A stretch of DNA of 59,027 nucleotides from Butyrivibrio sp. (GTDB lineage Bacteria; Bacillota; Clostridia; Lachnospirales; Lachnospiraceae), in assembly GCA_017535785.1 (NCBI GenBank), contig JAFXTN010000002.1, positions 1 through 59,027 of the forward strand, written 5' to 3'. Positions within the stretch are counted from its first letter, which is position 1, and each line of letters starts with the position of its first letter. Position numbers and translations under genes: made by a program. Under the pieces are notes generated by a model that did no database searches, had not been told where the DNA came from, and saw nothing but the letters and a program-made list of their open reading frames with translations. This document shows, piece by piece, positions 29,382-47,657 of this stretch.

Positions 29382-29474
29382 CGTTTTATTTTATGCAAAC
29401 CACTTTATAAAACAAGATGCAAAAAGTAAATAAATAAGGTATCATATAAATGTAATGCTCGGAGAGGGCTTCAC

Positions 29475-30678: not shown

Positions 30679-31659
30679 TTAATGCTTTTTTTGGTATTCA
30701 CCAAAAGGAATCCATTCTATCTTAACTTGTCTGCTTTCCCATTCTTGAGATAATGCATTGAACTCATCTTCGGATATCTGATATTCAGGTAAATAAGCCA
30801 ATTCACCTATATCTGTGATTGGTTCGGTTATATGTACCAAATTACCCCAGCAACCCAAAAACTCATCTTCTACAAAATCAGCTCCCAACTCACCATCATA
30901 TGTGCTCGGTGCAGAAACATTATCTATATGTATTCTCCAAACTCCGCTAAAGGCAGCTCCGCTGCTACCATAATGATAAATGTATCCATCATTTCCAAGC
31001 CAGTAATTACTCCTGCTTCCGCCCTCACAGATTGTTTTCGGCTTACCGTCTACCAAAGCGTAGGCACGTTCAAAGACTAGCTGCGGTTCATTATCCTGAT
31101 ATTTATCATGAAGCACACCGAATATCAGCTCATAATCACCGTCACTGTTCAGGTCCACATATGTATATCCCACGTTTAGAAGATCAAAACCATAGTCCAT
31201 TTCAAAGGTTGATCCGGTTTCTATCATCCGACTCTCATTAGTATCCTGATATAAAAGATTGCTTGTAACCACAGTTTGATCCGAATAAACACTCTGATCA
31301 AGCCAAGCAGCTTCTTCCTCTTGAGTTTTTACAACATCCGCAAATGCATCCGCGTAAAGTTCATCATACTTTTCAATAATGCTCTTATCCGTAAGCTTGT
31401 AGACATATTCTCCGTCCACGTTTTCCAGATATGTACGATCGTATTGAATATCTTTAGCTTCCGCTTTTTCTTCAGTCGACGCATTGGAAGCACTGTCTTC
31501 AACAAAAATACTGCTTGCTGCACCGGATGCATTCTCCGCAGTATTCTCTGCTACAGAATTGTCAACCGCGGCAGTATTGTTTATCTCAGTCTCACCGTTA
31601 CATGCCGTAAGCATAAACGTAAGCCCAAATAAAAGGCCAAAAATATTTCGTTTTTTCAT
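30679..31659 (-). CDS. Lipoprotein of unknown function, fourth gene of an ABC import operon
   Basis: A 326-residue exported lipoprotein: signal peptide with lipobox LTAC (Cys20), an Asn/Ala/Ser/Glu-rich linker to about 75, then a globular domain with the EF-hand-like stretch DLNSDGDYELIF near 172 (a Dx(N/D)xDG calcium-type loop). I do not recognise the family. It starts 3 bases after the ATPase stop, and its ribosome site (GAGGAA) lies within the end of the ATPase gene, so it is coupled to the importer and may help capture or release its ligand. Confidence 0.75.
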   Translation of the reverse strand: MKKRNIFGLLFGLTFMLTACNGETEINNTAAVDNSVAENTAENASGAASSIFVEDSASNASTEEKAEAKDIQYDRTYLENVDGEYVYKLTDKSIIEKYDELYADAFADVVKTQEEEAAWLDQSVYSDQTVVTSNLLYQDTNESRMIETGSTFEMDYGFDLLNVGYTYVDLNSDGDYELIFGVLHDKYQDNEPQLVFERAYALVDGKPKTICEGGSRSNYWLGNDGYIYHYGSSGAAFSGVWRIHIDNVSAPSTYDGELGADFVEDEFLGCWGNLVHITEPITDIGELAYLPEYQISEDEFNALSQEWESRQVKIEWIPFGEYQKKH

Positions 31660-31662
31660 ATT

Positions 31663-32478
31663 CTATTCCTCTTTCCTCCATAGTTTTGCTCTTTCACTCA
31701 TATAATACTCTACGTCGAGTCCATATAAGGTCTTTAGATTTTCTCCCGAAAGGGCCTCTTTTTTATCCCCAAAGCAAAGTATTTCTCCGTCTTTGATCAA
31801 AAGAATTTTCTCCGCTACCATAAGCGCCATATTGATATCATGATATACACCGATCAAGGTGTTGCGAACGCGTCTTCCGTCAGACATTTGAGTCTCTTTT
31901 TCTTTCCAAACGTTTAGAAAATCGAGTAGTTCCGCCTGATATTTAAGATCAAGGTGATTGGTGGGTTCATCGAGAAGAAGTATCGGCGTTTCCTGCGCAA
32001 GCGTTCTCGCAAGGAAAACTCTCTGAAGCTGGCCTCCCGAAAGTTCACCTATCTGCTTGTCCGCTAGCTTCTCAAGCCCTGTGCTTGCAAGACATTCATC
32101 GACAACTTCGATATCTCTTTTATCATAAGTTCCGAAGATATTTTTGCAGTACAGATACCTTCCCTGCATCACAGTCTCTTTTACGGTATATGAAAAATAC
32201 ACGCCCGAAAGCTGCGTCATTGACGAAACGTAAGACGCCAGCTCTTTTCTCTTCATATCGCGGATCTCGCGCCCTTCTATGCAAGCGCTGCCTTCATACG
32301 GAATAATCCCGCCGAGCGCGCGAAGAAGCGTTGTCTTACCGCAGCCGTTGGGGCCGAGAATTGCTATACTTTCGCCCTCGTTTATATCAAAGCCGATCTT
32401 TTTGATTATGGAATTGTCCGAAGGTCTCCTGCCGTATCCGCAGGAAAGCTCACTGCATTCAAGTATCTTCTGTTCCAT
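31663..32478 (-). CDS. Cobalamin/siderophore-type ABC importer ATPase
   Basis: A 271-residue ATPase of the FecE/BtuD/FhuC class: Walker A GPNGCGKTT (about 42-50), signature LSGGQLQR near 145, Walker B ILLLDEPTNHLD near 165, and the switch His in GVYHDINMA. It energises the FecCD-type permease two bases upstream. The class imports cobalamin, haem or iron siderophores. No B12-riboswitch or Fur-type box is visible upstream, so the substrate stays open. Confidence 0.9.
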   Translation of the reverse strand: MEQKILECSELSCGYGRRPSDNSIIKKIGFDINEGESIAILGPNGCGKTTLLRALGGIIPYEGSACIEGREIRDMKRKELASYVSSMTQLSGVYFSYTVKETVMQGRYLYCKNIFGTYDKRDIEVVDECLASTGLEKLADKQIGELSGGQLQRVFLARTLAQETPILLLDEPTNHLDLKYQAELLDFLNVWKEKETQMSDGRRVRNTLIGVYHDINMALMVAEKILLIKDGEILCFGDKKEALSGENLKTLYGLDVEYYMSERAKLWRKEE

Positions 32479-32480
32479 AA

Positions 32481-33494
32481 TTACTGTTTCCTATCGTGAA
32501 AATAAACCCAAACAAAGAAGGGTGCTCCGACAAGTGCCGTAACCGCGCCGACAGGTATTTCCCTGGGCGCCAAGAGAGTTCGTGCGACCATATCCGAAAG
32601 TGCCATAAATGCACCTCCGAGAAGCAGCGACATCGGTATGACAAGTGCATGCTTTGCCCCGAAAATCCTTCTTACTATATGTGGAACCGTGAGGTCCACA
32701 AAACCGATGATTCCTGAAAAACACACAGCCGCTCCGGTCAAAAAAGATGATAAAAGAAGCAATGCGATCTTGGACTTACCGACATCAACGCCCATGCTCA
32801 TCGCCTGTTCCTGCCCAAAGCTCATGATATCGAGTTCTCTGTGATATAAAGCCGTTCCGATCGTTCCAAGCACAAGGCAGATTAAAAGGATCAGCACATG
32901 AATCCATCTGCGTCCCGAGAAGGTTCCGAGCTGCCACAGAACAAGCCTTTGCATATGCTCGCCGTTAAGCGTACTTACAAGAGTAAGGATCGCATTTACA
33001 AAAAGAGAAAATACCATTCCGAACAGGATTATCGTATGGTTGTGCATGTTCCTGTCTATCTTAAGCGAGAACGCAAGTACAAGAAGCACGGTCAAAAGAC
33101 CTGACGCAAAGCCGCACACGGGAAGAAGAAACATTCCGAATATCGTTCCGGTTATTCCCGTTATGATAACAAAAGCCGCGCCAAGAGAAGCTCCCGCAGA
33201 AACGCCCATCGTATAAGACGATGCAAGCGGATTCTGCAAAAGAGCCTGCATGATCGCACCGCTCACAGAGAGAGCCGCGCCGACAAGAAATGCCGTAAGT
33301 GCTCTCGGCATACGAATATCCCAAAAGATTGAGACATTAGTCGGAGTCACGCTATCGGGAAGCGAAACGGAAAATATTTTGCTTATGATAATCTGCAGTC
33401 CCTCGATTGGCGATATAGAAACGCTACCAATGCCGATACAGACAAGCAATATAGCAAATGCCAATACTATGACTGCCATGATTTTCTTTTTCAT
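32481..33494 (-). CDS. FecCD/BtuC-type ABC permease
   Basis: A 337-residue type II importer permease with about ten membrane helices, one polypeptide per half transporter. Family marks include RMPRALTAFLVGAALSVSGAI cut by helix 2, GAALGLAF-like helix VSAGASLGAAF, and FVDLTVPHIVRR near residue 262, which precedes the coupling helix. It begins 9 bases after the binding-protein gene. Confidence 0.9.
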   Translation of the reverse strand: MKKKIMAVIVLAFAILLVCIGIGSVSISPIEGLQIIISKIFSVSLPDSVTPTNVSIFWDIRMPRALTAFLVGAALSVSGAIMQALLQNPLASSYTMGVSAGASLGAAFVIITGITGTIFGMFLLPVCGFASGLLTVLLVLAFSLKIDRNMHNHTIILFGMVFSLFVNAILTLVSTLNGEHMQRLVLWQLGTFSGRRWIHVLILLICLVLGTIGTALYHRELDIMSFGQEQAMSMGVDVGKSKIALLLLSSFLTGAAVCFSGIIGFVDLTVPHIVRRIFGAKHALVIPMSLLLGGAFMALSDMVARTLLAPREIPVGAVTALVGAPFFVWVYFHDRKQ

Positions 33495-33503
33495 ATAATC
33501 ACC

Positions 33504-34643
33504 TTAGGCCGCAGGTTTCTCCTCTGCAACTTCTTCAGATGACGCATCGCTTGCAGCATCCACTGTGCTTGCATCGCTTGCAGCGTCTGCCTTGTCACCC
33601 GCAAAAGGATCTACAACATCTTTATAATAATCGGGATAAATATCTTTTCCCATCTCGATCATAGCGCTGATAACATGCTGATTGGGGCGGTTTACTGTGT
33701 CATTGTCGATCTGATAAACTGCCTTGTCTTTAATTGCAGAAACGTTCTCCCAGCCCTTCATTGTAAGAAGCACGTTGATAACATCATCCGTGTACATGTC
33801 AGCAGTAAGGATAACCCGGGGATCCATAGCGACTGCAGCTTCCTCGGTAAGAGCAGGCCACTGCTCAGCTTCTTTTCCCGCAACATTAACGGCACCGACA
33901 ATCTCAAGCATCTCGTTTATATATGTGTTTGAACCTGCAGTGTAGATAGTAGGTGTATCACCCGAAGGAGTGAAAAGTTCAAAAAGAACCGTCTTTTTCT
34001 CTTCTTCCGGAATTGTAGCCGCAATCTCTTTTATCTCATCGATAGAAGCACTCATCTCTTCATTGATCTTGGCAGCCTCATCGCTCTTTCCGACTGCCGC
34101 GCCGAAAAACTCTATGTCTTTTTGGATATCTTCAAGGCTTGCGCTGCTTGGAGTATCGCAAACACATACACCCGCTTCTTTTACCGAAGCAAAAACATCT
34201 TCACCGTGGCTTGCACTCATTCCGGTTGTGAAAACAACGTCAGCTCCGAGTGCGATGATCTGCTCTTGATCGGGAGTCATCATATCGAACTGAGGAATGT
34301 CTTTTGCAAGAACATCTCCGTAGCTCGCTGCCGAATATGTATCGCAAGCTATGATCTTATCGGCAAGACCGAGATCAATAAGAATCTGAGTTGTCGAAGG
34401 CGCCATTGAAACTATCGCATTAATCTCATCGGGAATAGTTACCGCGTTGCCGCTTCTGTCGGTAACAGGCTTTCCTGATGCATTTGATTCATCTGTACTC
34501 TCGCCGCTTCCGGGCTCAACTTCTGTTATTTGAGGCTCTTTCTCCGGAGTTTTGGGTGTAACGGTATATTTGCTTGTACATCCCGCAAGTACAGACACAG
34601 CCATGGCTGCGGTCATGATCACAGCTAAAACTTTCTTTTTCAT
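33504..34643 (-). CDS. Cobalamin/siderophore-type ABC binding lipoprotein
   Basis: A 379-residue binding lipoprotein of the BtuF/FhuD class (two lobes joined by a long helix). The signal ends at LAGC (Cys22). The fold starts at VTDRSGNAVTIPDEINAIVSM cut near residue 60, with STTQILIDLGLADKIIACDTYS typical of BtuF-like proteins. The last 35 residues are a low-complexity Asp/Ala/Ser tail with repeated DAASDAS units, which is unusual for the class and may be a flexible extension. It heads the operon. Confidence 0.88.
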   Translation of the reverse strand: MKKKVLAVIMTAAMAVSVLAGCTSKYTVTPKTPEKEPQITEVEPGSGESTDESNASGKPVTDRSGNAVTIPDEINAIVSMAPSTTQILIDLGLADKIIACDTYSAASYGDVLAKDIPQFDMMTPDQEQIIALGADVVFTTGMSASHGEDVFASVKEAGVCVCDTPSSASLEDIQKDIEFFGAAVGKSDEAAKINEEMSASIDEIKEIAATIPEEEKKTVLFELFTPSGDTPTIYTAGSNTYINEMLEIVGAVNVAGKEAEQWPALTEEAAVAMDPRVILTADMYTDDVINVLLTMKGWENVSAIKDKAVYQIDNDTVNRPNQHVISAMIEMGKDIYPDYYKDVVDPFAGDKADAASDASTVDAASDASSEEVAEEKPAA

Positions 34644-34853
34644 AATTTTTCTCCTTTTATAATGTAATAATTCATATTGTCCTAAACAAATATACCTTTT
34701 TTAGCGCATTTCTTCAACGCTTACGTCGTTCTTTCCGCTCTGCTTCTACTATTCTTTTTCACTTGAAGTAGCACCCAAAAAACCTTAAACTTATCTAAGG
34801 GGAAAAAGGAAAAACATTTGCCGCATTTTATCCTGCGGCGGAACGGAGCAAAT

Positions 34854-35882
34854 ATGAAAAAACTAAAGGGGTATATGCACGGAGTTAACCTTGGCGGATG
34901 GCTTTCACAGTGCGACCACACCAAGGAAAGGTATGACTTCTTTATCACAGAAAGCGATATAGAAGTTATAAAGAGCTGGGGGATGGATCACATCAGAGTT
35001 CCCGTTGACTACGACCTTGTTGAAGATGCTCAGGGCAACTACAAAGAGGACGGTTTTGCATATATTCAGAAAGCGATCGAGTGGTGTAAAAAGAATAAGC
35101 TCAATATGGTACTCGATCTCCATAAGACCTTCGGTTACAGCTTTGACAGCGGCGAAGGCGAGCTCGGATTCTTTGAGAAAAAAGAGTATCAGGATCGCTT
35201 TTATAAATTGTGGGAGCAGTTTGCGATAAGATTCGGCAAGAACGATAACATGCTCGCATTCGAGCTTCTCAACGAAGTTACCAAAAAAGAATATTGTGAG
35301 ATCTGGAACGATGTTTCGAGAGAATGCATCACAAGGATCAGAAAGATCTCTCCGAATATCAAGATTCTTGTAGGCGGCTATTACAACAACAGTATCGAGG
35401 CGTTAAAAGACCTTGCGGAGCCTTACGATGACAACATCGTATATAACTTCCACTGCTATGAGCCCCTCATCTTTACGCACCAGGGAGCACCTTGGATAAA
35501 GGAGATGGACACCGAGTTCAGAATGCCTTTTGACTCAACCTACGGTCAGTACATCGAATTTAACAACAAGCATCTCGACCACATAACAGGCGATATGTCA
35601 GCGTTTGATAAAGAGGCCATGTTCGGTCCGGAGTTCTTTGACAGATATCTCGCAGAAGCGGTTAAGGTTGCCGAAGAGCGAAACGTAATGCTCTACTGCG
35701 GCGAGTACGGAGTCATCGACAGAGCAACTCCCGAAGATACCCTTAAGTGGTACAAGGTAATATGCAAGACCTTCGATAAGTACGGAATAGGACGCGCGGC
35801 TTGGAGCTACAAGCAGATGGACTTCGGCCTTTCCGACGAGCGCATGAAAGGCGTTATCGGAGAAATAACCAAAATAATGTAA
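34854..35882 (+). CDS. Cytoplasmic GH5 glycoside hydrolase
   Basis: A 342-residue glycoside hydrolase family 5 enzyme (retaining beta-glucanase/glucosidase/mannanase family). The acid-base Glu141 (FELLNEV) and nucleophile Glu284 (YCGEYG) are intact, as are HIRVPVDYD near 46 and NFHCYEP near 199. There is no signal peptide, so it should trim imported oligosaccharides inside the cell. The start used has GGAG 6 bases upstream; 12 upstream in-frame codons are excluded. The neighbours suggest a beta-gluco- or manno-oligosaccharide substrate, but subfamily and specificity are not determined. Confidence 0.85.
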   Translation: MKKLKGYMHGVNLGGWLSQCDHTKERYDFFITESDIEVIKSWGMDHIRVPVDYDLVEDAQGNYKEDGFAYIQKAIEWCKKNKLNMVLDLHKTFGYSFDSGEGELGFFEKKEYQDRFYKLWEQFAIRFGKNDNMLAFELLNEVTKKEYCEIWNDVSRECITRIRKISPNIKILVGGYYNNSIEALKDLAEPYDDNIVYNFHCYEPLIFTHQGAPWIKEMDTEFRMPFDSTYGQYIEFNNKHLDHITGDMSAFDKEAMFGPEFFDRYLAEAVKVAEERNVMLYCGEYGVIDRATPEDTLKWYKVICKTFDKYGIGRAAWSYKQMDFGLSDERMKGVIGEITKIM

Positions 35883-35889
35883 TGATATT

Positions 35890-35917
35890 CCGGCTCTTTT
35901 TTCAAAGGGCCGGTTTT
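35890..35917 (+). terminator. Weak terminator/attenuator between the GH5 and GH13 genes
   Basis: Stem CCGGCTC/GGGCCGG (one G-U pair) is followed by TTTTC. It could end part of the GH5 transcripts. Confidence 0.65.
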
Positions 35918-35934
35918 CATCTTAGGAGGTTACA

Positions 35935-37485
35935 ATGCCAAACTGGTTAAAAGACGCTGTTTTTTACGAAATATATCCACAATCCTTTAATGATACAAAT
36001 GCCGACGGAATCGGAGATCTTCAGGGTATAATCGACAAGCTCGATTATGTAAAGAGCCTTGGTTGCAACGCTATCTGGATCAACCCTTGTTTTGATTCTC
36101 CTTTCAAGGATGCCGGGTACGATGTAAGAGATTACAAAAAGGTAGCTTCAAGATACGGAACGAACGACGATCTTGTAAGACTCTTTGACGAAGCTCACAA
36201 GCGTGATATCAAGATCCTTTTAGACCTTGTCCCCGGCCACACTTCCGAGGAACATGAGTGGTTTAAAAAGAGCTGTGAGATAGACAGAAACGAATACTCA
36301 GACAGATACGTTTGGACCAACGGTGCATTCTGCGGAATCGGCGGACACCCTTATATCGGAGGCGGAGCCGACAGAGACGGCTGCTATATGCTCAACTTCT
36401 TCAAGTGCCAACCCGCTCTTAACTACGGTTTCCTCAATCGCACCGAAAGCTGGCAGAAAGCCCCCGACGATCCTTCTTGTATTGCCACAAGAGAAGCAAT
36501 GAAGGATGTTATGCGCTTTTGGCTTGATAAGGGCTGCGACGGCTTCAGAGTCGACATGGCAGATTCGCTTGTAAAAGAGGATGACGAAAATAAATCCGCA
36601 ACAGGAAAAGTATGGAAAAATATAAGAGAGATGATGGACAAAGATTATCCGGATGCGGCTCTTATTTCCGAGTGGTGCAATCCCGGTCAGTCCCTTAACT
36701 ACGGTTTCCATGCAGACTTCTATCTCGATCATTGGGGCAACGGCTACAACACCCTTATCCGCGATTACGAGACAGAAGGCGGCGACCACAGCTTCCTTAA
36801 AAAGGACAGCGGCAGTGATATAATGCGCTTTTTAAATGATTATCATCCAAAATACGAAAACACAAAAGATAAAGGTTTCATCAGCTTTATCACCTGCAAC
36901 CACGATACACCAAGACCTGCAAGAACTCTTTCAAATGAAGAGCTCAAGCTTGCATATGCAATGTTCCTGACTCTCCCCGGAGTGCCTTTTATCTACTACG
37001 GAGACGAGATCGGAATGCGTTATCTCGATGTTCGTACCAAGGAAGGCGGATACCACAGAACAGGCTCAAGAACTCCCATGCAGTGGGACAATTCTGAAAA
37101 CCGCGGCTTCTCATCGGCTTCCAAGGACAAGTTCTATCTCCCTGTCGATGAATCGAAAGATGCTCCTACGGTAGAAGCTCAGGAAAAAGATCCTTCGTCA
37201 CTGCTAAACGAAGTGCGAAGACTTACCGCTCTTAAGCACGAGTACACTGATCTTAACGCCGATGCATCCTTTGAAGTTATTTACGCAGAAAAAGAAAATT
37301 TCCCCTTCATTTACAGAAGAGGAAATCTTGTAATTGCTATCAATCCTTCAGGCAAGGAATGCAGCGCTAATATATCCGCAAAAGCAAATGTAGCGGGCAA
37401 TCCTGTCTATACGATAGGAACGGCAAGCTGCGATAGCGGCAAGCTTACCATTGCTCCGCAGTCATTTGCGGTATTTAAAGCATAA
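35935..37485 (+). CDS. GH13 alpha-glucosidase-type enzyme
   Basis: A 516-residue GH13 enzyme with the catalytic triad Asp207 (GFRVDMAD), Glu246 (ISEWCN) and Asp324 (TCNHDTPRP) and a C-terminal beta domain. Region I reads DLVPGHTS rather than the common DLVVNHTS, as in some alpha-glucosidase and sucrose-acting subgroups. There is no signal peptide, so it works in the cytoplasm on short alpha-glucosides. AGGAGG lies 7 bases before the ATG. Its stop codon directly abuts the stop of the convergent esterase gene with no terminator between them. Confidence 0.85.
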   Translation: MPNWLKDAVFYEIYPQSFNDTNADGIGDLQGIIDKLDYVKSLGCNAIWINPCFDSPFKDAGYDVRDYKKVASRYGTNDDLVRLFDEAHKRDIKILLDLVPGHTSEEHEWFKKSCEIDRNEYSDRYVWTNGAFCGIGGHPYIGGGADRDGCYMLNFFKCQPALNYGFLNRTESWQKAPDDPSCIATREAMKDVMRFWLDKGCDGFRVDMADSLVKEDDENKSATGKVWKNIREMMDKDYPDAALISEWCNPGQSLNYGFHADFYLDHWGNGYNTLIRDYETEGGDHSFLKKDSGSDIMRFLNDYHPKYENTKDKGFISFITCNHDTPRPARTLSNEELKLAYAMFLTLPGVPFIYYGDEIGMRYLDVRTKEGGYHRTGSRTPMQWDNSENRGFSSASKDKFYLPVDESKDAPTVEAQEKDPSSLLNEVRRLTALKHEYTDLNADASFEVIYAEKENFPFIYRRGNLVIAINPSGKECSANISAKANVAGNPVYTIGTASCDSGKLTIAPQSFAVFKA

Positions 37486-39588
37486 TTATGAATAAAAGAA
37501 CGAATACAACAGGAACGGTGTCTGTGCATCTGCGCAGGCGCCTTCTTTTGCCATTATCTCCAGCGTGATCTCATGCTCGTTCTGTGCCATATCGGAAAGA
37601 ACGTGCTCCAGATATATGCAATCACCCCAATCTTCATCAAAGTTTCCGTCTAAGATGATCGGATGAAGCATATCGCCGTCAATTATCATCTTGGCTATAA
37701 GTGCCGGTCTGTTAACTGTCTTCCTATACTGAACACCCAGTCTGTAGCAGCTTACATTAAACTTAAACACCTCTCCTACAGTCGCGAACTCCTTATTGAA
37801 GACAGCACGCTTCGTATTCTCAAATCTGTTGAAGGTTATCGGTGCGGGAAGCGCATCATGCTGCCTGCTGAGATTTATGTTCTTCGCACCTGCCGCACAA
37901 CCACATTCATTCTTTGCATTGCTTTTGGCAAGACTTTCCTTTACACCATCCAGATACTCTATAACTCTCTTTGCGAGTTCTTCATGTCCCTTATCATTGG
38001 GATGAAGTCCGTCGGGAGTAATCTCATCCCTCGTAAACTTACCGTCCTTAATATCCTTATAGAGAGTATCTCTCATACTGATACCGTCTATATTGTAATG
38101 TTTGCAGATTTCTTTGTGATAATCCTCTGCGGTAACACCCGTATCATAGAAAACATTGTAAAGTGCCAAAACCGCAGGGTTCGTCTTATAAGAAGCCATC
38201 TTTCTTATAAGTCCCTCGTATGTCTCCTTGTAGAATCCGTTTACCTCATCATTAACGGAAAAGTCGACCATTACAAAATCGGGATTCTCAGACAGAAGAT
38301 CGTCATCGCATCTTCCGACTCCGTAATATGAATCCGTTCCGCCGATTCCCGCATTTACATAATTAAACTTGGCATTTGGAAAGTTCTTTTCCCACCAGTC
38401 GAAAACTCTTTTTGCATAACATTTATCGGAAGTGCTCGCAAGCGATCCGTGAGTTATCGAGCCACCGATGAAGCCAATTGTAAGCTCCTCTCCGTTCATC
38501 GCCCTGTTCATAATATCCATAGTGCGAGCGGTTGTAAGTCCAAGCACTCTTCTAAGCTCATCGGAAAGAGCTTTTGCCGCATGCATATGCCCCGAAAGAG
38601 ACGGATGAACTCTCATTCCGATCTCATCACCGAGGCAATTGGGCAGGATAAAAAGAGATACTCTCTTATCGCCGGAAGCACTCTTATACTCATCTACCGC
38701 ATCCCGGATAACACCCTCTATAAGAGGTCCCATCATTCCGTATGCCCAAAGAATATAGGCATTTGGATTATTCTTTCTTATCTTTCCAAGGAAATCAACG
38801 GCTGCTGCCTTAAAGTCCTTAATAAACTCTTCTTTTTCGGAAATTGTCTTGTGGCAGTTAAGTCCGCTCTGATCGTTTGTTCCGAGATTTAATATAACGG
38901 CGTCGACAGCTCTTTTACCAAAGTTCCAGTCATCTTGGGCTCCTGCGGAAGCATTCTCCGCTCCTCCCAAAGTTCCCGCAACCTGCTCATAGTGAGGCGG
39001 TATAACATGCGTATAATCCGAATCCCATGCGGCGTAAAGTCCAAATCCGCTCTGCGACACAACGTTATAATCCGCTCCGAGATCCTTTGCGGTAAGAAAC
39101 GCATAGTTATCGGTACAGCTAAAGACCGCAGGCGACCAATCTTCCTGCCTTGTAAGACCTCCACCCTCTCCCGATGTGATACTGTCACCTATAAACTCAA
39201 GGAAAAGAGGTCTCTCCTTAGCCACTGCAAACTCGCCGTTTGTCTCTATATCCGTATATTTAAGGTAAGATACACTGTCTTCAAAAAAAGCCTGAGAAGT
39301 TCTGAGAATCCTGAACTCTCTGTTTCTCTTAAGTTCTCCGCCGCCCCAGATATGAATCCTGTTGGTTCCTTTTTCTAGAACTCTTCTCTGAGATACTTCT
39401 CCGTCAACAAGGATCTCAATCCAAAGATCGAGCCTGTCAAAAACAGCTTCGATCGTAACCCAGACATCTGTAGCATCTGTTACGAACTCCACACCGCTTC
39501 CCGTCCAGAAAGACGTAATGTCCTCCGAAACGGGGCATCTTCCCAATACTTTCAGTTTTCCTTCATTTGCCAATAATCCCGGTTTCAT
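37486..39588 (-). CDS. Fused CE2-CE17 acetyl-mannan esterase
   Basis: A 700-residue cytoplasmic protein with two different SGNH esterase modules. Residues 1-125 are a CE2-type jelly roll, followed by a CE2 catalytic domain with Ser136 (FIGDSITSGEGG), the LGTNDQ block near 235 and His328 (VHPSLSGH). Residues 368-550 are a second SGNH domain like CE17, with Ser377 (FIGGSITHG), GIGGTDSYYG near 414, VDFSVND near 441, and Asp526/His529 (PDGLHP). A beta-rich C-terminal module follows from about 580. In Roseburia intestinalis the CE2 and CE17 mannan esterases are separate proteins that remove acetyl groups from different hydroxyls; here they are joined. It is the last gene of the manno-oligosaccharide operon, 4 bases after GH130_2, and no signal peptide is present. 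Confidence 0.88.
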   Translation of the reverse strand: MKPGLLANEGKLKVLGRCPVSEDITSFWTGSGVEFVTDATDVWVTIEAVFDRLDLWIEILVDGEVSQRRVLEKGTNRIHIWGGGELKRNREFRILRTSQAFFEDSVSYLKYTDIETNGEFAVAKERPLFLEFIGDSITSGEGGGLTRQEDWSPAVFSCTDNYAFLTAKDLGADYNVVSQSGFGLYAAWDSDYTHVIPPHYEQVAGTLGGAENASAGAQDDWNFGKRAVDAVILNLGTNDQSGLNCHKTISEKEEFIKDFKAAAVDFLGKIRKNNPNAYILWAYGMMGPLIEGVIRDAVDEYKSASGDKRVSLFILPNCLGDEIGMRVHPSLSGHMHAAKALSDELRRVLGLTTARTMDIMNRAMNGEELTIGFIGGSITHGSLASTSDKCYAKRVFDWWEKNFPNAKFNYVNAGIGGTDSYYGVGRCDDDLLSENPDFVMVDFSVNDEVNGFYKETYEGLIRKMASYKTNPAVLALYNVFYDTGVTAEDYHKEICKHYNIDGISMRDTLYKDIKDGKFTRDEITPDGLHPNDKGHEELAKRVIEYLDGVKESLAKSNAKNECGCAAGAKNINLSRQHDALPAPITFNRFENTKRAVFNKEFATVGEVFKFNVSCYRLGVQYRKTVNRPALIAKMIIDGDMLHPIILDGNFDEDWGDCIYLEHVLSDMAQNEHEITLEIMAKEGACADAQTPFLLYSFFYS

Positions 39589-39592
39589 AGCT

Positions 39593-40615
39593 TTATCTTT
39601 TTCCTATTTCCGTGTCTGTCTCTCTTACAACACTGTTATTTTTGATATAGTCAATTATATCATCAAGCGTAGTGAATGCCAGAGCAACATAGGAATCCGC
39701 GGTACCGTAATAGATGACGATCCTGCCTGTTGCGGGATCGTGTATAGTAGCACAAGGGAAGCACACATTCGGAACAAAACCTCTCTCCTCATACCACTCC
39801 TCGGGAGTAATAAGGAATGTGCTGCATCTGTAAAGAACCTTTGAAGGCTCGTCCTTATCAAGGATCGCGCCGCCGATTGAATAAACATATCCGTTGCAGG
39901 TTCCCGTTACGCCGTGATAGAACATGAGCCAGCCTTCGCTTGTCTCAATGGGAGCCGCACCTCCGCCTATCTTAAGGCTTTCCCACCACTCCTCCGACTT
40001 ACTCATAACATGGCGGTGTTTGCCCCAATAAACAAGGTCGGGACTCTCACTTAAGAATATATCTCCGAAAGGTGTATGTCCGCTGTCGGAAGGTCTGGAC
40101 AGCATAACGAAGTTACCGTTTATCTTTCTTGGGAAAAGAACCGCATTCCTGTTAAACGGAAGGAACGGATTCTCGACTCTCACAAACTTCTTAAAATCGG
40201 TTGTCTTGGCCATTCCGATCGCCGCTCCGTAAAAGTCCTGACACCAGATGATATAGTAAGTATCTTCAACCTTTACAAGTCTTGGATCGTAGGCATATCT
40301 CGGCATAAAAGGCTTTCCGTCTTCATCGACAAAAGGAACTCTCTCTTTGTCAAACTCCCAGGAAATACCGTCTTTACTTCTTCCGAGATAGACAAAAGGA
40401 ATTCCGTCAGTCTGCTCGGCTCTGAACACGCCGATAAATCCTCCTTCATAGGGAACTACCGCGCTGTTAAAGATCCTGGCAACACCCGGAATGGGATTTC
40501 TACCTATTATCGGGTTTTCCTTGTATCTCCAGATCGGAATTGCTCCAAGATCCGCAGGCTTCTCCTGCCAAGGCATATTCGGTACATCAGGACATCCGTA
40601 TATCTCATATTTCAT
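39593..40615 (-). CDS. GH130_2-type beta-1,4-mannooligosaccharide phosphorylase
   Basis: Phosphorolytic release of mannose-1-phosphate from beta-1,4-manno-oligosaccharides. The 340-residue five-bladed propeller has the GH130 general acid Asp110 in RYAYDPRLV and the phosphate-binding basic residues around NAVLFPRKINGNFVMLSRPSD near 156. The length and sequence fit subfamily 2 (mannooligosaccharide phosphorylase). It lies 3 bases downstream of the GH130_1 gene and works with it and the 2-epimerase. Subfamily call is from length and context and is less sure than the family call. Confidence 0.85.
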   Translation of the reverse strand: MKYEIYGCPDVPNMPWQEKPADLGAIPIWRYKENPIIGRNPIPGVARIFNSAVVPYEGGFIGVFRAEQTDGIPFVYLGRSKDGISWEFDKERVPFVDEDGKPFMPRYAYDPRLVKVEDTYYIIWCQDFYGAAIGMAKTTDFKKFVRVENPFLPFNRNAVLFPRKINGNFVMLSRPSDSGHTPFGDIFLSESPDLVYWGKHRHVMSKSEEWWESLKIGGGAAPIETSEGWLMFYHGVTGTCNGYVYSIGGAILDKDEPSKVLYRCSTFLITPEEWYEERGFVPNVCFPCATIHDPATGRIVIYYGTADSYVALAFTTLDDIIDYIKNNSVVRETDTEIGKR

Positions 40616-40618
40616 CTG

Positions 40619-41800
40619 TCAGTTCCTCCCACTTGCATTTAGCAGCTCATTGTTCTTTCTTATGAGTTCAATTCTCTTTTGCACGCAAAGCACGCTCCTT
40701 CCGGGATCGGAAGGTGTGTTAAAGCAGTAATCCAAAAGCTTATCTATCGTAGTTGTCGCAACATACATTCTCGTATCGCTTCCCGCATAGTACAGATACA
40801 CGTCCCTGCCTCTTACTATGCATCCGTTGGAAAAGACAACGTTGCTTACATCGCCGACTCTCTCAGAGCCCCTGGGTCCAAGCAAAAGTCCGCCGGGCTG
40901 CGCCGTTACGACCCATGGCTTTTCAAGATCGCTCATATATGCATAAAGGACATATCGAAGTCCTGCTGCCGTATTTCTTACTCCATGCGCTATGTGAAGC
41001 CAGCCCTTTTCAGTCTCTATCGGAACTGCACCCTCACCGTTCTTGGCTTCCGTAATGGTATGATATTTTCGAAGGCTCGTCATCTTCTCTTCATCTATAA
41101 CAGCCTTGGTAATGTCTTCGCACAGTCCAAAGCCTATTCCGCTGCCCGATCCCGTCTCAATGAAATCATCCATCGGTCTTGTATAAAAAGCGTACTTTCC
41201 TTCGACAAATTTGGGATGAAGCACCACATTCCTTTGCTGAGGAGATCTGAGTGTAACAAGATTGGGAAGTCTCTCCCAATTCACCATGTCTTTGGTTCTT
41301 ATAATTCCCGCAGAGGCAACAGCCGCAGACAGATCATTACTCGAAGTGTCTTTTTTCTCAGAGCAAAAAACTCCGTATATAAAGCCATCCTCATGCTCCG
41401 TAAGCCTTACGTCATAGACGTTGGTCTCCTCACCGTCTATATCATCAAGAAGGATTGGTTCTCCCACGAATCTGAAATTGTCTGTTCCGTTATCACTCTT
41501 TGCAAGTCCGAAGAAAGACTTTCTGTCCGCGCCTTCTATCCTAGCCATTAAATAAAATGCTCCGTCAAAAAAGATCGCGCCCGAATTCATTACCGCATTG
41601 ATCCCCTGACGCTCCATGAAATAAGGATTGCTCTCCTTATCAAGATCGTATCTCCACTCGATCGGGATATGCTCTCTTGTAAGAACAGGGTTCTCATATC
41701 TGTCAAAAAGGCCATTGTAAAATGCCTCATCTATCTTATTTTTCTTTTGTAAAAAGAGCTCCTGCTTTTCTTTTTCCTTGTAGTAATTTTCGTGAATCAT
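40619..41800 (-). CDS. GH130_1-type 4-O-beta-mannosyl-glucose phosphorylase
   Basis: Cleaves mannosyl-beta-1,4-glucose with phosphate to mannose-1-phosphate and glucose. The 393-residue protein has the GH130 general acid Asp130 in NVYDVRL and the long N-terminal helix (about 35 residues before [10 protein letters not shown]) typical of subfamily 1. Phosphate-site residues lie in [20 protein letters not shown] near 190. I use the ATG at 41798-41800 (GGAG 7 bases upstream); a GTG directly before it is possible. Its substrate is the product of the 2-epimerase encoded 26 bases upstream. Confidence 0.88.
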
Positions 41801-41826
41801 CACAAAACTCCGTTCTGTTTATAGTA

Positions 41827-43068
41827 TTATCTTTTTCCGAATTTAATCCTTGATATCATCTCAATGCACATGCGCCCGTTGTGATAAGGGCATTTCCATG
41901 GTTCTACGATGGGCTCGTCATACGACGGTGTTCCGTCCTCATTCACATACCAGTACCACTCGCTCGGATGAAGCTTATTATTTACAAGATTCTTTTTTAT
42001 GAATTCCCATATGCCAAAAACAGCATCCAAGTATTCCGTCTTCGAAGAATCTTTTTGATATCCGTTGTAAAAGCCGGTCATTGCTTCAGCCTGCACCCAC
42101 CAGACTCTTTTTCCATCGACTTTTCCGTTTTCACACTCTGTCGGAATGGAATTATTTCTGTAAGCCTCTTTATAAACCTGCTCGGTAAGCATATTTATAA
42201 TAGGCTCTGTCCTCGCCGCCACATCCTTGTCTCCAAGAACATCGACAGCTCTGTTTATAAGCCATGCGCTCTCTATGTCATGCCCGTAAGAATAAAGATC
42301 TATAAGCGACTTATAATCACCGTCAAAAAAGACTTCCTGCCTTTTAAGTTTCGGATTATAAATTTTCTCCTCTATGATTCCCAATATCTCTTCAAGACTT
42401 GAAAAGACTTTTCCGTGAAGTGCCTGTATATCACTTGAAAAATCCGCTTCCGAATATAACGATTCGTCCGTCACACGATACAATTCCGTATACGCTTCCA
42501 TTATGTGAAGCAATGTGTTCATGGTTCGTTTGGCTTCAACGCCGTTTCCGGACAGTTTTTCATTTGATACGGGAGAAAAATCTCTTCCAAAAGCTTCGAG
42601 ATATCCCTTGTCATCCCGCATCTTTTCTTCTATCAGCTCATATAAAGAAATCGCTCTTTCGAGAGCTCTTTTATCTTGGGTAGCGTCGTAGTATGCGCAC
42701 AGACCGTATATCGCAAAAGCCTGATTATATGTATGTTTGGTGGTATCTGTGGGAGTTCCTTTATGATCAAGCTCCCAATAGATTCCTCCGAATTCATCAT
42801 CCCAAAAATTATTTATAAGTAGCTTGAAAGCACTGTCCATGTAGGGTCTTAGGCTATCATCAAAGAGCTCTTTTTTTGCTTTTGAAAAAAACCATAATAT
42901 CCTGCTGTTAAGTATTCCGCCCTTGGGAGCTTTTTTGTCTATATTTCCGTCGTTGTCCATAAGGCCGTAAAAGCCGCCGAACTCTGTATCTATGAGCTTT
43001 TCCCAAAAGGGAATAAGCTCTTTGTTAAGGCAAGTCTCAAGCTCTTTTGCCAATAATTTCTCGTCCAT
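41827..43068 (-). CDS. Cellobiose 2-epimerase (AGE family)
   Basis: Epimerises the reducing-end residue of beta-1,4-disaccharides (mannobiose to mannosyl-glucose, cellobiose to glucosyl-mannose). The 413-residue (alpha/alpha)6 barrel keeps the three catalytic histidines: His188 (NTLLHIMEAY), His263 (YGHDIESAW) and His396 (CPYHNGR). The aromatic floor (WVQAEAM near 325) is also present. It links the importer to the mannosyl-glucose phosphorylase, the same order of steps as in Ruminococcus albus and Roseburia mannan use. Confidence 0.92.
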   Translation of the reverse strand: MDEKLLAKELETCLNKELIPFWEKLIDTEFGGFYGLMDNDGNIDKKAPKGGILNSRILWFFSKAKKELFDDSLRPYMDSAFKLLINNFWDDEFGGIYWELDHKGTPTDTTKHTYNQAFAIYGLCAYYDATQDKRALERAISLYELIEEKMRDDKGYLEAFGRDFSPVSNEKLSGNGVEAKRTMNTLLHIMEAYTELYRVTDESLYSEADFSSDIQALHGKVFSSLEEILGIIEEKIYNPKLKRQEVFFDGDYKSLIDLYSYGHDIESAWLINRAVDVLGDKDVAARTEPIINMLTEQVYKEAYRNNSIPTECENGKVDGKRVWWVQAEAMTGFYNGYQKDSSKTEYLDAVFGIWEFIKKNLVNNKLHPSEWYWYVNEDGTPSYDEPIVEPWKCPYHNGRMCIEMISRIKFGKR

Positions 43069-43075
43069 ATTTTAT

Positions 43076-43936
43076 TTATCCTTTGACCGCTCCTGCTGCA
43101 ATTCCGCTGTATATCTGCTTCTGACACAAGATAAAGACTATAAGTGCCGGAGTAAATGAAATGATAACGCCCGCGCAGATAAGGTTGTACTGGCTTCCCA
43201 TCGGGCCCACGAAGGTATAAAGAGACGTAGACATCGTGTGAAGCTCTTTACTCTGAAGATAAAGATTTGCGCAGTAATACTCGTTATATACGCTTACGCC
43301 TTTGAGAATACATGCAGTAACTATTGCCGGTTTTAAAAGCGGGAACAGTATCTGCCAATAGATCTTAAAATAGCTCGCGCCGTCTATAACGGCCGATTCA
43401 TCCAGTGATGTCGATATGTTTTCCATGAACTGGATAAAAATATAAATCGAAATAACATCGGTTCCGCACATCATGATGATGTATCCGTAAAGGTGATTTA
43501 CAAGATGAAGTCCGGACATAATGTTGTAGACCGTTACCTGCATGGCAACGGAAGGAAGGAGTGATGCAAAAAGATACATGCTCCTTATTATCTGATTTCC
43601 GAAGAAGGAAAATCTTGTAAGCACATAAGCAAGCTGAGTACCGATGATGACCGAGATCACAAGCACGACCACCATGACGATCACGGAGTTAAGAAACGCT
43701 CTGCCCATGTTCGCAAGCTTAAATGCTTTTATAAAATTATCAAAGTTAAGAAAGCTTCCGGGAAGCGTCATAACATTGGTGCTCTTGTATTCCGTCTCTG
43801 TTTTGAATGCTGTGATAAGGCATGAAACAAGAGGAAGCAAACACATAGTTCCCATCAAAAGAAGCGATGCGTATTTAAGGAACGTTATAACGATCTTCTG
43901 TATGTAATTAAGTACTGTCATATTCTTTTCTGCCAT
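43076..43936 (-). CDS. Manno-oligosaccharide ABC permease (MalG type)
   Basis: A 286-residue permease with six membrane helices; the EAA loop is DESAVIDGASYFKIYWQILFP near residues 179-199, and the C-terminus SGIAAGAVKG is MalG-like. It overlaps the upstream permease gene by one base (ATGA) and is followed 7 bases later by the epimerase gene. No ATPase is encoded here, so a shared MsmX-type ATPase from elsewhere must energise it. Confidence 0.9.
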   Translation of the reverse strand: MAEKNMTVLNYIQKIVITFLKYASLLLMGTMCLLPLVSCLITAFKTETEYKSTNVMTLPGSFLNFDNFIKAFKLANMGRAFLNSVIVMVVVLVISVIIGTQLAYVLTRFSFFGNQIIRSMYLFASLLPSVAMQVTVYNIMSGLHLVNHLYGYIIMMCGTDVISIYIFIQFMENISTSLDESAVIDGASYFKIYWQILFPLLKPAIVTACILKGVSVYNEYYCANLYLQSKELHTMSTSLYTFVGPMGSQYNLICAGVIISFTPALIVFILCQKQIYSGIAAGAVKG

Positions 43937-44868
43937 CAGTCTTTCGCCTCCCTGAATACATATTTAAAGAACAGCTTCTGCAAGATCGTGCACACGAAGA
44001 TAATAAGCAAAAGCACAACCGCCATTGCGGAAGCAAGTCCGACCTTCTGTGATACATGTGCGATCTCGTTCATGATTACAAAATATGTTCCCGTTCCGTT
44101 GGCGCCGTTTGTGATAACGTAAGGCTGCTCAAAGGATGAAAGCGATCCCGTGATAGACAGGATGACATTTAGCGTCACTATAGTTTTGATACTTGGAAGA
44201 ATAATGTGTTTGAATATCTGCGGCTTATTTGCCCCGTCGAGCGCCGCAGCTTCATAGAGGGTATCATCAACCGACATTATCGCTCCTATGAAAAGAACCA
44301 TATTCTGACCAAAGTACCTCCACACGGAAGTAGCAACCAGCGACCAGTTGTTGATATTCTGGTCTTTAAGCCAATACGGTAGGTTTTCATATGAAGCACC
44401 CAGAACGTGCAAGACCGTATCAAGCACGAATCCTCTGGTGTAAAAGAATTTGAAGATAAAGCCGATGGCGATACCGTTTATAAGATAAGGGAAGAACATA
44501 AGTCCCTTAAAGAGATTTCCGCCTTTGGCCTTAAAGCTGAGTATCGTTGCAAAATACAACGCAAGCACAAGCTGGATAAGCGCTCCCACCATGTAGTACA
44601 AGGAAAGTCTCAACGCGCCGAAGCAGTCATCTCTTTTAAATACATCTATGTAATTCTGGAATCCGACAAAAACTCTTTTATCTACCGGAGTGGAGTATTT
44701 CATCTTATAAAAGCTGAATTTTACCATCTCTGCGAAAGGATAATATGTAAAAACCACAAGAAGGGTGAGAGGTATAACAAGGAACATTCCCATTGTCAAA
44801 AGTTGTTGTCCCTTCCTTGTTTTCCAAAAGCTCTTTTTCACAGCTTTTTCCTTATAAGATTTCTCCAT
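43936..44868 (-). CDS. Manno-oligosaccharide ABC permease (MalF type)
   Basis: A 310-residue permease with a basic cytoplasmic N-terminus and six membrane helices; the EAA loop is YEAAALDGANKPQIFKHIILP near residues 207-227. I start it at the ATG at 44866-44868, which has GGAGG 6 bases upstream; eight in-frame codons before it lack a ribosome site. It pairs with the downstream MalG-type subunit. Confidence 0.9.
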   Translation of the reverse strand: MEKSYKEKAVKKSFWKTRKGQQLLTMGMFLVIPLTLLVVFTYYPFAEMVKFSFYKMKYSTPVDKRVFVGFQNYIDVFKRDDCFGALRLSLYYMVGALIQLVLALYFATILSFKAKGGNLFKGLMFFPYLINGIAIGFIFKFFYTRGFVLDTVLHVLGASYENLPYWLKDQNINNWSLVATSVWRYFGQNMVLFIGAIMSVDDTLYEAAALDGANKPQIFKHIILPSIKTIVTLNVILSITGSLSSFEQPYVITNGANGTGTYFVIMNEIAHVSQKVGLASAMAVVLLLIIFVCTILQKLFFKYVFREAKD

Positions 44869-44910
44869 ACTCCACCTCCGGTAATTCATCAAGTAATACT
44901 TACCTGTCTT

Positions 44911-46329
44911 TTATTCTGTAACTTCGATCGAATTAAGCTCCTGAGCATCTGTCCAAGCATCATTCCACTCTTTCATGATGTCGTCAAAAGATTTGTCTTT
45001 GTTAGCGGCATGCTCGACAAGCTGCTGAATCTTGGTATTTCCGCCGCTGTTGATATTAAGCTCCGAATCGGAATTAAGAAGATTGATGAAGTCCTCTTCG
45101 CCTTCCACTGCGGGCTCATCCTCAAGGAATTCAACACCGTCAAATGCAAGCTTGGTCTCTGTGTTTCCGACAACAATCGGAAGACCGTCTTCGTTATAGT
45201 AGAAGCCTGACTTCTCTGTCATCCACTTAATGAATACCATTGCGGCTTCCTTCTCTTCCTCGGTAGCGTTTGCATTGATACCGAAGTTGTAATCGGGAGC
45301 GCTGATGCTGTACTGCTTGCCGTTTACAGTGATAGGGAAAGGCATGTATCCGATGTCTGCCGCGTTGGGTCCTGCTGCCTCCATCTGAGGATAAGACCAT
45401 GATCCAAGAACCATGCATCCGATCTCTCCGTTATTGAGCATTCCCTTTGAACCTTCCCAGTCGGTTGTAGTATAGTCATCCTCGATGAGACCTTCCGAAA
45501 CGGCATCATAGAGAATCTTATATACCGCATAAGCATGTGTGTCATCGCCGTAATCCTTGAAAGGATCCTTGGTGTGAGCAAGCTTTCTGTTGATGTATTC
45601 GCTGTCACCTGTTGCGTTTACTCCGATATATACGTCCCATGCACCCATTGTCCAACCTGCTGCATAGTTTGTATAAAGAGGAATCGCATCGGTATTCTCT
45701 TTTATCTTTTTAAGTGCATCTATAAATTCTGAAGGAGTCTTGGGAAGTTCTGTAACGCCTGCATCCGCAAATACCTTCTTGTTGTATACGATACCCTGTG
45801 CGGTAGCTGTAGAGGGAACGCCGTAGCACATTCCGTCATATGACCACTGAGATGCATAATTTACAAGCTTAGACATCTCATCAAGTGTTCCGTAAGGCAT
45901 GAAATAATTGGAAAGATCTGCCTTATCGATATGAGGGATCATCATGATAGTCTCATAGTCGCCAGACTGCAGATGTGTAAGCGCATCGTCTGCATAGTTG
46001 GTGTCTGTTGTGATCTCAACATTGATACCGGGGTACATTTTGTTAAACTCGGCAAGATATTCCTTCCAAGTAACTCCGCCGTAATCATCCGAATCCATAT
46101 CGGTTCTGTGATTGAACACCGTGATCGTTGTGTTTAAGTCCGTGTAACTCTCCCCAAGCACCACGCTTGCGTAAGTAAGCTCTCCGTTACCCACTGCCTC
46201 AGGAGAAGCCTCTTTTGCATCTTCCTGCTTGGTTTCAGCAGGAGCATCTCCTGTCGAAGCTGTTTCCCCACACGCGGTAACAGAAAAGATCATACAAGCT
46301 GCCAGTAACATTGCAATCTTCTTTTTCAT
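44911..46329 (-). CDS. Manno-oligosaccharide ABC binding lipoprotein
   Basis: A 472-residue family-1 solute-binding lipoprotein. The signal ends at VTAC (Cys20). The mature protein has VFNHRTDMDSDDYGG near 70, YGVPSTATAQGIVYNKKVF near 170 and GEIGCMVLGSWSYPQ near 305, typical of oligosaccharide binders. As first gene of the operon, behind a good promoter and operator, it should capture manno-oligosaccharides (mannobiose and longer, perhaps acetylated) made by mannanases encoded outside this window. Confidence 0.88.
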   Translation of the reverse strand: MKKKIAMLLAACMIFSVTACGETASTGDAPAETKQEDAKEASPEAVGNGELTYASVVLGESYTDLNTTITVFNHRTDMDSDDYGGVTWKEYLAEFNKMYPGINVEITTDTNYADDALTHLQSGDYETIMMIPHIDKADLSNYFMPYGTLDEMSKLVNYASQWSYDGMCYGVPSTATAQGIVYNKKVFADAGVTELPKTPSEFIDALKKIKENTDAIPLYTNYAAGWTMGAWDVYIGVNATGDSEYINRKLAHTKDPFKDYGDDTHAYAVYKILYDAVSEGLIEDDYTTTDWEGSKGMLNNGEIGCMVLGSWSYPQMEAAGPNAADIGYMPFPITVNGKQYSISAPDYNFGINANATEEEKEAAMVFIKWMTEKSGFYYNEDGLPIVVGNTETKLAFDGVEFLEDEPAVEGEEDFINLLNSDSELNINSGGNTKIQQLVEHAANKDKSFDDIMKEWNDAWTDAQELNSIEVTE

Positions 46330-46359
46330 AACTAAACCAGCCTCCTTTTAACTGTTTTT

Positions 46360-46378
46360 AAGTATTTTTAGTATACTT
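46360..46378. promoter_or_regulatory. Operator candidate over the manno-oligosaccharide promoter
   Basis: AAGTAT-N7-ATACTT overlaps the -10 box and start point of the operon promoter. The adjoining 11-mer TTTTTAAGTAT (46355-46365) recurs at 47617-47627 upstream of the LacI gene, which suggests one regulator acts at both. Confidence 0.6.
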
Positions 46379-46397
46379 CTTAGCCATGATAAGTCAA
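46370..46397 (-). promoter_or_regulatory. Promoter of the manno-oligosaccharide operon
   Basis: Minus strand TTGACT (46392-46397), 16-base spacer, TATACT (46370-46375), 40 bases upstream of the binding-protein start; an AGGAGG ribosome site follows. Confidence 0.75.
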
Positions 46398-46476
46398 TGG
46401 ATTTCGGGCAAAATAAATAAAGTCTGTTTGTTTTTCACATTTATTTTTATGCGTTTTTGTCAGTTTTACACATGAA

Positions 46477-46527
46477 AAAACAGGCTAAAAAGCTAACAAA
46501 TTAAATTTTAGCTTTTTAGCCTGTTTT
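46477..46527. terminator. Terminator after the LacI gene
   Basis: A perfect 19-bp stem (46477-46495 with 46509-46527, core CAGGCTAAAAAGCTA) with a 13-base loop ends in T runs on both strands. It insulates the regulator gene from the operon promoter. Confidence 0.93.
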
Positions 46528-46547
46528 CATTTTCAAATTTAATCACA

Positions 46548-47573
46548 TCAAACAGTCAGATCTTTTACACTGTCTCTTTCTATCACGGAACCTCCGACAA
46601 TGATAAGACCCTTCTGATAGTGCTCATTCCTAAGGTTGTGCAAGAGATTATGCACGACTCTCTTGGACATCTCTTTGGTATCAACATCATAGGTTGTGAT
46701 ACCTATATCACAAAGGCCGGGATAAATGAAATTATCATAACCGACTATCGAAACATCCTCAGGTACTCTGTAGCCCGCATCGCGAAGCTTACCTATAAGC
46801 ATGCTTGCGGTCAGATCACAGTTACAAACAAATGCCGTCGGCATCTCCTTGGGAAGCTTCATGAAACTATCGTCCATAACTCCGGTGTATCTGTCTCTGT
46901 CGTCCAGAACCCAGTTCTTATTGGGTTTGATCTCATGTTCCATCATAGCCTTCTCATAGCCCAGGAATCTGTCCGTTATGGAACCTGTTGCAAGGAGCGT
47001 GCCCACATAGCCGATCTTCTTGTGACCTTTTTCAAAAAGATAATTGGTCATTGTATATGCGCCGTAGAAATTATTGGAAATAACCGCATCCGCACACGCT
47101 GTAGTTTCGCTGAAATCAAGGTAAATAACAGGGAGCTTAAATTTGGACATCTTATCGAGATACTGCTCCGATAAGCTTCCTATCACGATAACACCCGCAA
47201 CCTTGGATTCTCTTAAAATATTGGGCATCCTAAGCTCATTTATCATCTCATCCGATATGGTCTCAAGAAAGCTGCCGCAGCCCTTAGCCGCTATCTCCGT
47301 GGCAACAAGCTGCTGTAGATTGCCGTAGAAAGAAACATATTTGGCCATATGCCTTTCTGCGACAATTATTCCGATCGGAAAAGTAGTATCAACAACCGTC
47401 TTAAAGCCTCTTCTTCTCTCGATGGGAGTATATCCCATCTTGGCAGCAAGCTCCTCGATCTCTTTCCTTAGCTGCTCGCTCATTCCCTTTTTGCCTGCAA
47501 GCGCCTTGGATACGGTAACCGTGCTGACTCCGAGCTTATCCGCAATATCTTGCATTCTGACTGTCTTTTTCAT
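46548..47573 (-). CDS. LacI-family regulator of the manno-oligosaccharide operon
   Basis: A 341-residue repressor. Residues 5-52 are the LacI helix-turn-helix (MQDIADKLGVSTVTVSKALAG) and hinge; the rest is a periplasmic-binding-protein-like sensor domain (GIIVAE, YVGTLLATGSITDRFLGYE, VSIVGYDN). The ATG has AAAAGG upstream. It lies directly upstream of the transport operon, in the same direction, separated by a strong terminator. Regulation of that operon is inferred from position and from the shared 11-mer in both promoter regions. Confidence 0.9.
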   Translation of the reverse strand: MKKTVRMQDIADKLGVSTVTVSKALAGKKGMSEQLRKEIEELAAKMGYTPIERRRGFKTVVDTTFPIGIIVAERHMAKYVSFYGNLQQLVATEIAAKGCGSFLETISDEMINELRMPNILRESKVAGVIVIGSLSEQYLDKMSKFKLPVIYLDFSETTACADAVISNNFYGAYTMTNYLFEKGHKKIGYVGTLLATGSITDRFLGYEKAMMEHEIKPNKNWVLDDRDRYTGVMDDSFMKLPKEMPTAFVCNCDLTASMLIGKLRDAGYRVPEDVSIVGYDNFIYPGLCDIGITTYDVDTKEMSKRVVHNLLHNLRNEHYQKGLIIVGGSVIERDSVKDLTV

Positions 47574-47591
47574 GTGTTTTCCTTTTTAGCT

Positions 47592-47626
47592 TACTTAAAA
47601 ATGAGTTAATTAGTCTTTTTTAAGTA
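47592..47626. promoter_or_regulatory. Inverted repeat upstream of the LacI gene
   Basis: Arms TACTTAAAAA (47592-47601) and TTTTTAAGTA (47617-47626) are perfect 10-mers 15 bases apart. The same arm is found in the operon promoter at 46355-46364. Autoregulation is likely. Confidence 0.6.
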
Positions 47627-47657
47627 TATGCTATTAAAAGAAAAAATGGAAGTCTTA

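Follow-up and report, generated by a model that had tools for sequence, protein, structure and literature searches.

Removal of acetyl groups from mannan by two complementary carbohydrate esterases is already known from enzymes that are made separately. RiCE2 and RiCE17 (RiCEX) of Roseburia intestinalis and FpCE2 and FpCE17 of Faecalibacterium prausnitzii divide the substrate between 3-O, 4-O and 6-O acetyls on the one side and 2-O acetyls on the other, as demonstrated biochemically in passages of PMC6385246 and PMC8262883. The accounts of how the two activities influence each other differ: FpCE2 and FpCE17 together gave full deacetylation with no rate synergy and with possible competition (passages of PMC8262883), the Roseburia pair was called cooperative by La Rosa 2019 (passages of PMC6385246), and a review describes RiCE17 and RiCE2 as synergistic, doubly acetylated mannans needing RiCE17 first (passages of PMC9487903). 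The Butyrivibrio protein described here, P0001, belongs to the same esterase families and the same pathway; in contrast to the separate genes and proteins of Roseburia (as the preliminary description of this DNA had rightly stated) and of Faecalibacterium, it is one protein, with both activities predicted.

P0001 is encoded in a stretch of 59,027 nucleotides (Butyrivibrio sp., GenBank assembly GCA_017535785.1, contig JAFXTN010000002.1), which as a whole is referred to below as the window. The features concerned are the following.

37486..39588, minus strand: CE2-CE17 fusion protein P0001, 700 aa (ORF list, family and structure matches)
38533..39588, minus strand: CE2 half, residues 1-352, of Est2A type, an N-terminal jelly roll and then an SGNH domain; Ser136 (39183-39181), Asn238 (38877-38875), His328 (38607-38605)
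37489..38532, minus strand: CE17 half, residues 353-700, an SGNH domain, then a linker, then a CBM35-like module; Ser377 (38460-38458), Asn446, Asp526, His529, Trp654
39593..40615, minus strand: GH130_2-like beta-1,4-mannooligosaccharide phosphorylase (5ayd, E 1.6e-119)
40619..41803, minus strand: GH130_1 (5ay9, E 4.4e-176)
41827..43068, minus strand: cellobiose/mannobiose 2-epimerase (4z4j, E 4.5e-105)
43076..44892, minus strand: two putative ABC sugar permeases, named by inspection, with relatives at the corresponding position of other mannan loci
44911..46329, minus strand: putative ABC sugar-binding lipoprotein, named by inspection, with relatives in other mannan loci
46548..47573, minus strand: LacI-type regulator (PF00356/PF13377)

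The fusion gene is the last of an operon, with the genes of GH130_2, GH130_1, the 2-epimerase, the permeases, the binding protein and the LacI-type regulator upstream in the same direction, and the steps of mannan phosphorolysis are supplied by these neighbours. The earlier assignment of the operon to this pathway is supported by the matches of the two GH130 enzymes and the epimerase to solved structures. In the window's genome, which is 90.77% complete, GH26 gave no match at E 0.001; probably, then, the organism takes up oligosaccharides that others have produced. Positions 47658-50393, where the cassette ends, hold a large ORF containing an extended low-complexity stretch rich in Gly, Asn, Asp and Ser, and the DNA identity to near relatives drops there.

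Each half of P0001 matched solved enzymes of its respective family over their full length, both in sequence and in fold. The proposal of a 700-residue protein uniting CE2 and CE17 with two intact active sites has stood. The CE2 half shows the jelly roll N-terminal to the SGNH domain that CE2 requires, and the CE17 half the SGNH domain with the C-terminal CBM35-like module that CE17 requires (linker at about 551-590, module at about 591-700). The predicted structure, which the preliminary description had suggested as a check, gave the CE2 and CE17 folds for the two halves, with their relative placement uncertain (pTM 0.70). The catalytic Ser136 and His328 are present in the CE2 half; together with Asn238 they are invariant in all 31 rows of the CE2 alignment (A2), and His328 aligns with the Est2A histidine that is altered in entry 4dev. 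A joint alignment of CE2 and CE17 (A1) merged the two SGNH domains and was discarded. In the CE17 half, Ser377 aligns with position 41 of RiCE17, presumably its catalytic serine, and Asp526/His529 is the counterpart of the DxxH pair that we take to be active-site residues of CE17. Asn110 and Trp326 of RiCE17, both named in passages of PMC13276840 and PMC7666174, correspond to Asn446 and Trp654. The Pfam family CE2_N (PF17996), a marker borne by some CE2 enzymes and not a defining feature, did not match P0001 at 0.001. Both active sites are intact, and the intact residues together with the constraint described below suggest that both domains would be catalytically active, the deacetylation at 3-O/4-O/6-O by CE2 and at axial 2-O by CE17 being predicted from homologues in activity as well as in positional specificity. 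Among solved CE2 enzymes the nearest is Est2A, which carries the name of an acetyl xylan esterase, so the CE2 half may prefer a substrate other than mannan. No signal peptide was seen by inspection, and a cytoplasmic location is predicted.

A sequencing or assembly error hiding a stop codon might also produce such a frame: the window comes from a draft genome of 39 contigs, with the completeness given above and 3.34% contamination, and the second fusion of the window type comes from a MAG. We nevertheless regard an error as improbable in the extreme, since that MAG of the same genus (Butyrivibrio sp. Tb.RUG.513; L037/L056) carries, at 73% identity, an uninterrupted fused frame with a conserved junction, situated as in the window between GH13 and GH130_2. 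The dN/dS values between the window and L056 were 0.072 for CE2, 0.064 for CE17 residues 355-700, 0.13 for the junction and 0.30 for the linker, with dS near saturation (and saturated for residues 591-700, the CBM35-like part, taken alone), and both halves appear to be under purifying selection. For the in-frame starts around the junction (348, 357, 360, 364) the Shine-Dalgarno match never exceeds 3 bases, whereas it ranges from 4 to 7 in the operon genes and is 4 at the start of P0001 itself. The shared frame, the constraint and the weak internal Shine-Dalgarno matches make one polypeptide the likely product. In L056 (6211-6487) the ABC transporter genes are absent between LacI and the epimerase.

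To count such proteins, fused frames were worked out on the DNA itself, using CE17, Est2A-type CE2 and classical CE2 profiles; the summed open-frame length is no test of fusion, as it reached 805 for G241, yet L140 has two separate frames. The full fusion was present in 2 of the 79 genomes of the genus search, the window's included, and the window's own was the only uninterrupted P0001-type fusion in the family (299), order (392) and class (391 genomes) searches, which are samples of the best first-look candidates per genome with G333 unlisted and therefore give lower bounds. No relative was found in the viral contigs scanned. Three other CE2-CE17 fusions (L064, L074 and L077; 3/59 loci), all from Lachnospiraceae, have a CE2 half of the classical kind that matches CE2_N (E 4.8e-21, 1.7e-18 and 7.3e-17, respectively); a restriction of the fusion to this genus is ruled out by them. 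The homologue search proposed at the outset has returned both a 73%-identical relative and a second clade. The window's CE2 and those of the second clade fall into different subfamilies of the CE2 tree (SH-aLRT of the split 100), and in the CE17 tree the fused rows form two separate clades and need two changes, forced by well-supported branches; these are quick trees with SH-aLRT support only, the CE2 tree bearing a long-branch warning and giving no clear order, within the genus, for fused as against stand-alone CE2. In L008 (G236), the sister of the window clade, CE2 and CE17 are separate, adjacent and in the same order. On these sequence comparisons the CE2-CE17 fusion is rare and has arisen at least twice.

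Among 53 distinct neighbouring CE2/CE17 pairs (duplicates were removed, and pairs with truncated or low-scoring domains, e.g. L046, dropped out) 5 were fused, 45 were unfused in the order CE2-then-CE17 and 3 had the reverse order. The two genes shared one frame in 15 of the 45 unfused pairs, and in 13 of these 15 exactly one stop intervened, so the loss of a single stop would be an easy route to fusion.

In three close relatives (L150, L151 and L152) the 10-kb mannan cassette (window 37478-47657) is replaced by a stand-alone CE2 of about 72% DNA identity, and CE17 and the phosphorylases are absent at the site. The flanks are much closer: on the GH13 side the identity to the window is 92.5% in L150 (28308-37477), 91.9% in L151 (28274-37477) and 94.4% (30680-37476) and 87.2% (28168-30614) in L152, while on the far side it is 79.6-82.0% over about 47658-48344 and 90.0-94.8% from about 49000. 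Near relatives have therefore gained, lost or exchanged the cassette at this site, and a CE2 half is able to survive without a CE17 partner. The stand-alone CE2 falls into an unresolved group of the CE2 tree together with the two fused CE2 halves of the window type. The bin G333 (5% contamination) contains two versions of the locus, L152 and L056, one with flanks nearly identical to the window and one about 75-80% alike; it may be a mix of two species.

Other neighbouring enzymes are also fused in loci of this kind, epimerase and GH130_1 (mannosylglucose phosphorylase) being consecutive steps of the pathway.

L064:6019-8448, plus strand: epimerase-GH130_1 fusion in one frame, 810 aa
L155:3020-5524, minus strand: epimerase-GH130_1 fusion in one frame, 835 aa
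L198:3046-5277, minus strand: GH130_1-CE2 fusion in a mannan-type locus
L195:2187-4628, plus strand: GH1-CE2 fusion in a mannan-type locus
L196:1603-3705, minus strand: CE17-phosphomannose isomerase fusion in a mannan-type locus

GH1 and the isomerase were fused in 9/15 adjacencies; unlike several of its neighbours, GH130_2 was joined to a neighbouring enzyme in none of 63. Single proteins with two CE17-like domains occur in L137, L138 and L141, and in L139, L142, L143, L145 and L147 a CE17 or CE2 is joined to PGA_cap, to SLH and another esterase, to lectin and CBM modules, to CBM65 or to GH5. When neighbouring cytoplasmic enzyme pairs were counted, leaving out GH1-isomerase, transporter, regulator and CE17-CE17 pairs, CE2-CE17 was fused in 5/50 cases as proteins and the others in 5/168 (Fisher p 0.052), and as events in 2/50 and 5/168 (p 0.66), each of the other five fusions being treated as independent by assumption. 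The count is biased, as CE2/CE17 queries served to collect the loci and three of them, L195, L196 and L198, were chosen for their long-looking frames; without these three the comparison becomes 5/50 with 2/165 as proteins (p 0.008) and 2/50 with 2/165 as events (p 0.23). A special tendency of CE2 and CE17 to fuse is possible, but as events their fusions are not clearly enriched over those of other neighbours.

We consider it quite probable that P0001 is a cytoplasmic bifunctional mannan acetylesterase, formed when adjacent operon genes, CE2 and then CE17, became one reading frame, and with its two sites acting as in their homologues. Acetylated manno-oligosaccharides would be imported and then deacetylated by P0001, the C-terminal CE17 site removing axial 2-O acetyls and the N-terminal CE2 site the 3-O/4-O/6-O acetyls, and the deacetylated chain would pass to GH130_2, the epimerase and GH130_1. 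It seems quite unlikely that one half, most likely CE2, now serves as a binding module or acts on substrates such as xylo- or cello-oligosaccharides. The title of Est2A as an acetyl xylan esterase, and that of the CE2 entry 2w9x, which cites non-catalytic binding functions of the active site, point in that direction, whereas the invariance of Ser136, Asn238 and His328 throughout A2, the dN/dS of 0.072 and the mannan operon around the gene argue for a retained esterase.

Why the two halves are linked is a different matter. The preliminary description had taken the fusion as direct evidence of cooperation between the two enzymes, which is too strong because CE2 and CE17 are usually adjacent anyway, other neighbours fuse as well, the enrichment in events is unclear and the reports of synergy differ. 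That the link was selected because both sites work successively on a single bound oligosaccharide, we hold to be rather unlikely; CE17 would then first free the 2-O position and CE2 would reach the neighbouring acetyl of doubly acetylated residues, or catch migrated acetyls. The synergy and the order of action described for RiCE17 and RiCE2, the cooperative Roseburia pair, the intramolecular synergy of fused CE6-CE1 xylan esterases (PMC7110780), the two CE2-CE17 origins with the same domain order and the protein counts (p 0.052 or 0.008) are all consistent with selection. Against it are the FpCE2 and FpCE17 pair with its possible competition and no rate synergy, the excess of events that is not significant, the fusions between neighbours that share no intermediate, and the domain order, which simply mirrors the common gene order. 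We find it somewhat easier to believe than not that the fusion is neutral or close to neutral, a stop codon having been lost between adjacent genes and both domains tolerating it with a fixed 1:1 ratio as the sole effect, an account of the link that is compatible with a bifunctional esterase. The 13 pairs that are one stop away from fusion, the other fused neighbours in the same kind of locus and the stand-alone CE2 of L150-L152, which does without the link, agree with it; the single frame kept by the window and L056 down to 73% identity, which makes the fusion a lasting one, and the two independent origins speak against it. Still broader is the notion that the fusions form a chain, epimerase-GH130_1-CE2-CE17-phosphomannose isomerase-GH1, and are snapshots of a physically associated intracellular mannan-degrading complex, in which the CE2-CE17 protein would be the esterase core and its sites would attack one bound oligosaccharide in succession; to this we give little credence.

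P0001 would be a natural tethered form of an enzyme pair whose separate activities are known, so the benefit of tethering can be asked about directly by comparing the whole with the split protein. It may also serve as a reagent that strips acetylated mannan of all its acetyl groups with a single enzyme, and the series of fusions is natural material for asking how frequently pathway genes fuse and which neighbours are involved. The preliminary description had allowed for many fusions of this kind having been described already; none was found in the open-licence literature, and the phrase 'CE2-CE17 esterase pair' in PMC13390407 follows, in the passage concerned, text listing two carbohydrate esterases. 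Est2A of Butyrivibrio proteoclasticus (3u37, 4dev) differs from P0001 in having no CE17 half. RiGH1 of the Roseburia mannan locus, already published as a fused GH1-phosphomannose isomerase (passages of PMC6385246), resembles P0001 in uniting two enzymes of the same locus; the enzymes are other ones, and its first domain was inactive in the tests its authors report in those passages. Closer in kind are the CE6-CE1 acetyl-feruloyl esterases of Bacteroides ovatus and Flavobacterium johnsoniae (PMC7110780) and the two-CE1 enzyme of Dysgonomonas mossii (passages of PMC8040265), which like P0001 carry two esterase domains per protein, though of other families and directed at xylan rather than mannan. 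Fused carbohydrate esterases are thus known as a kind, and the CE2-CE17 combination is new within the literature searched.
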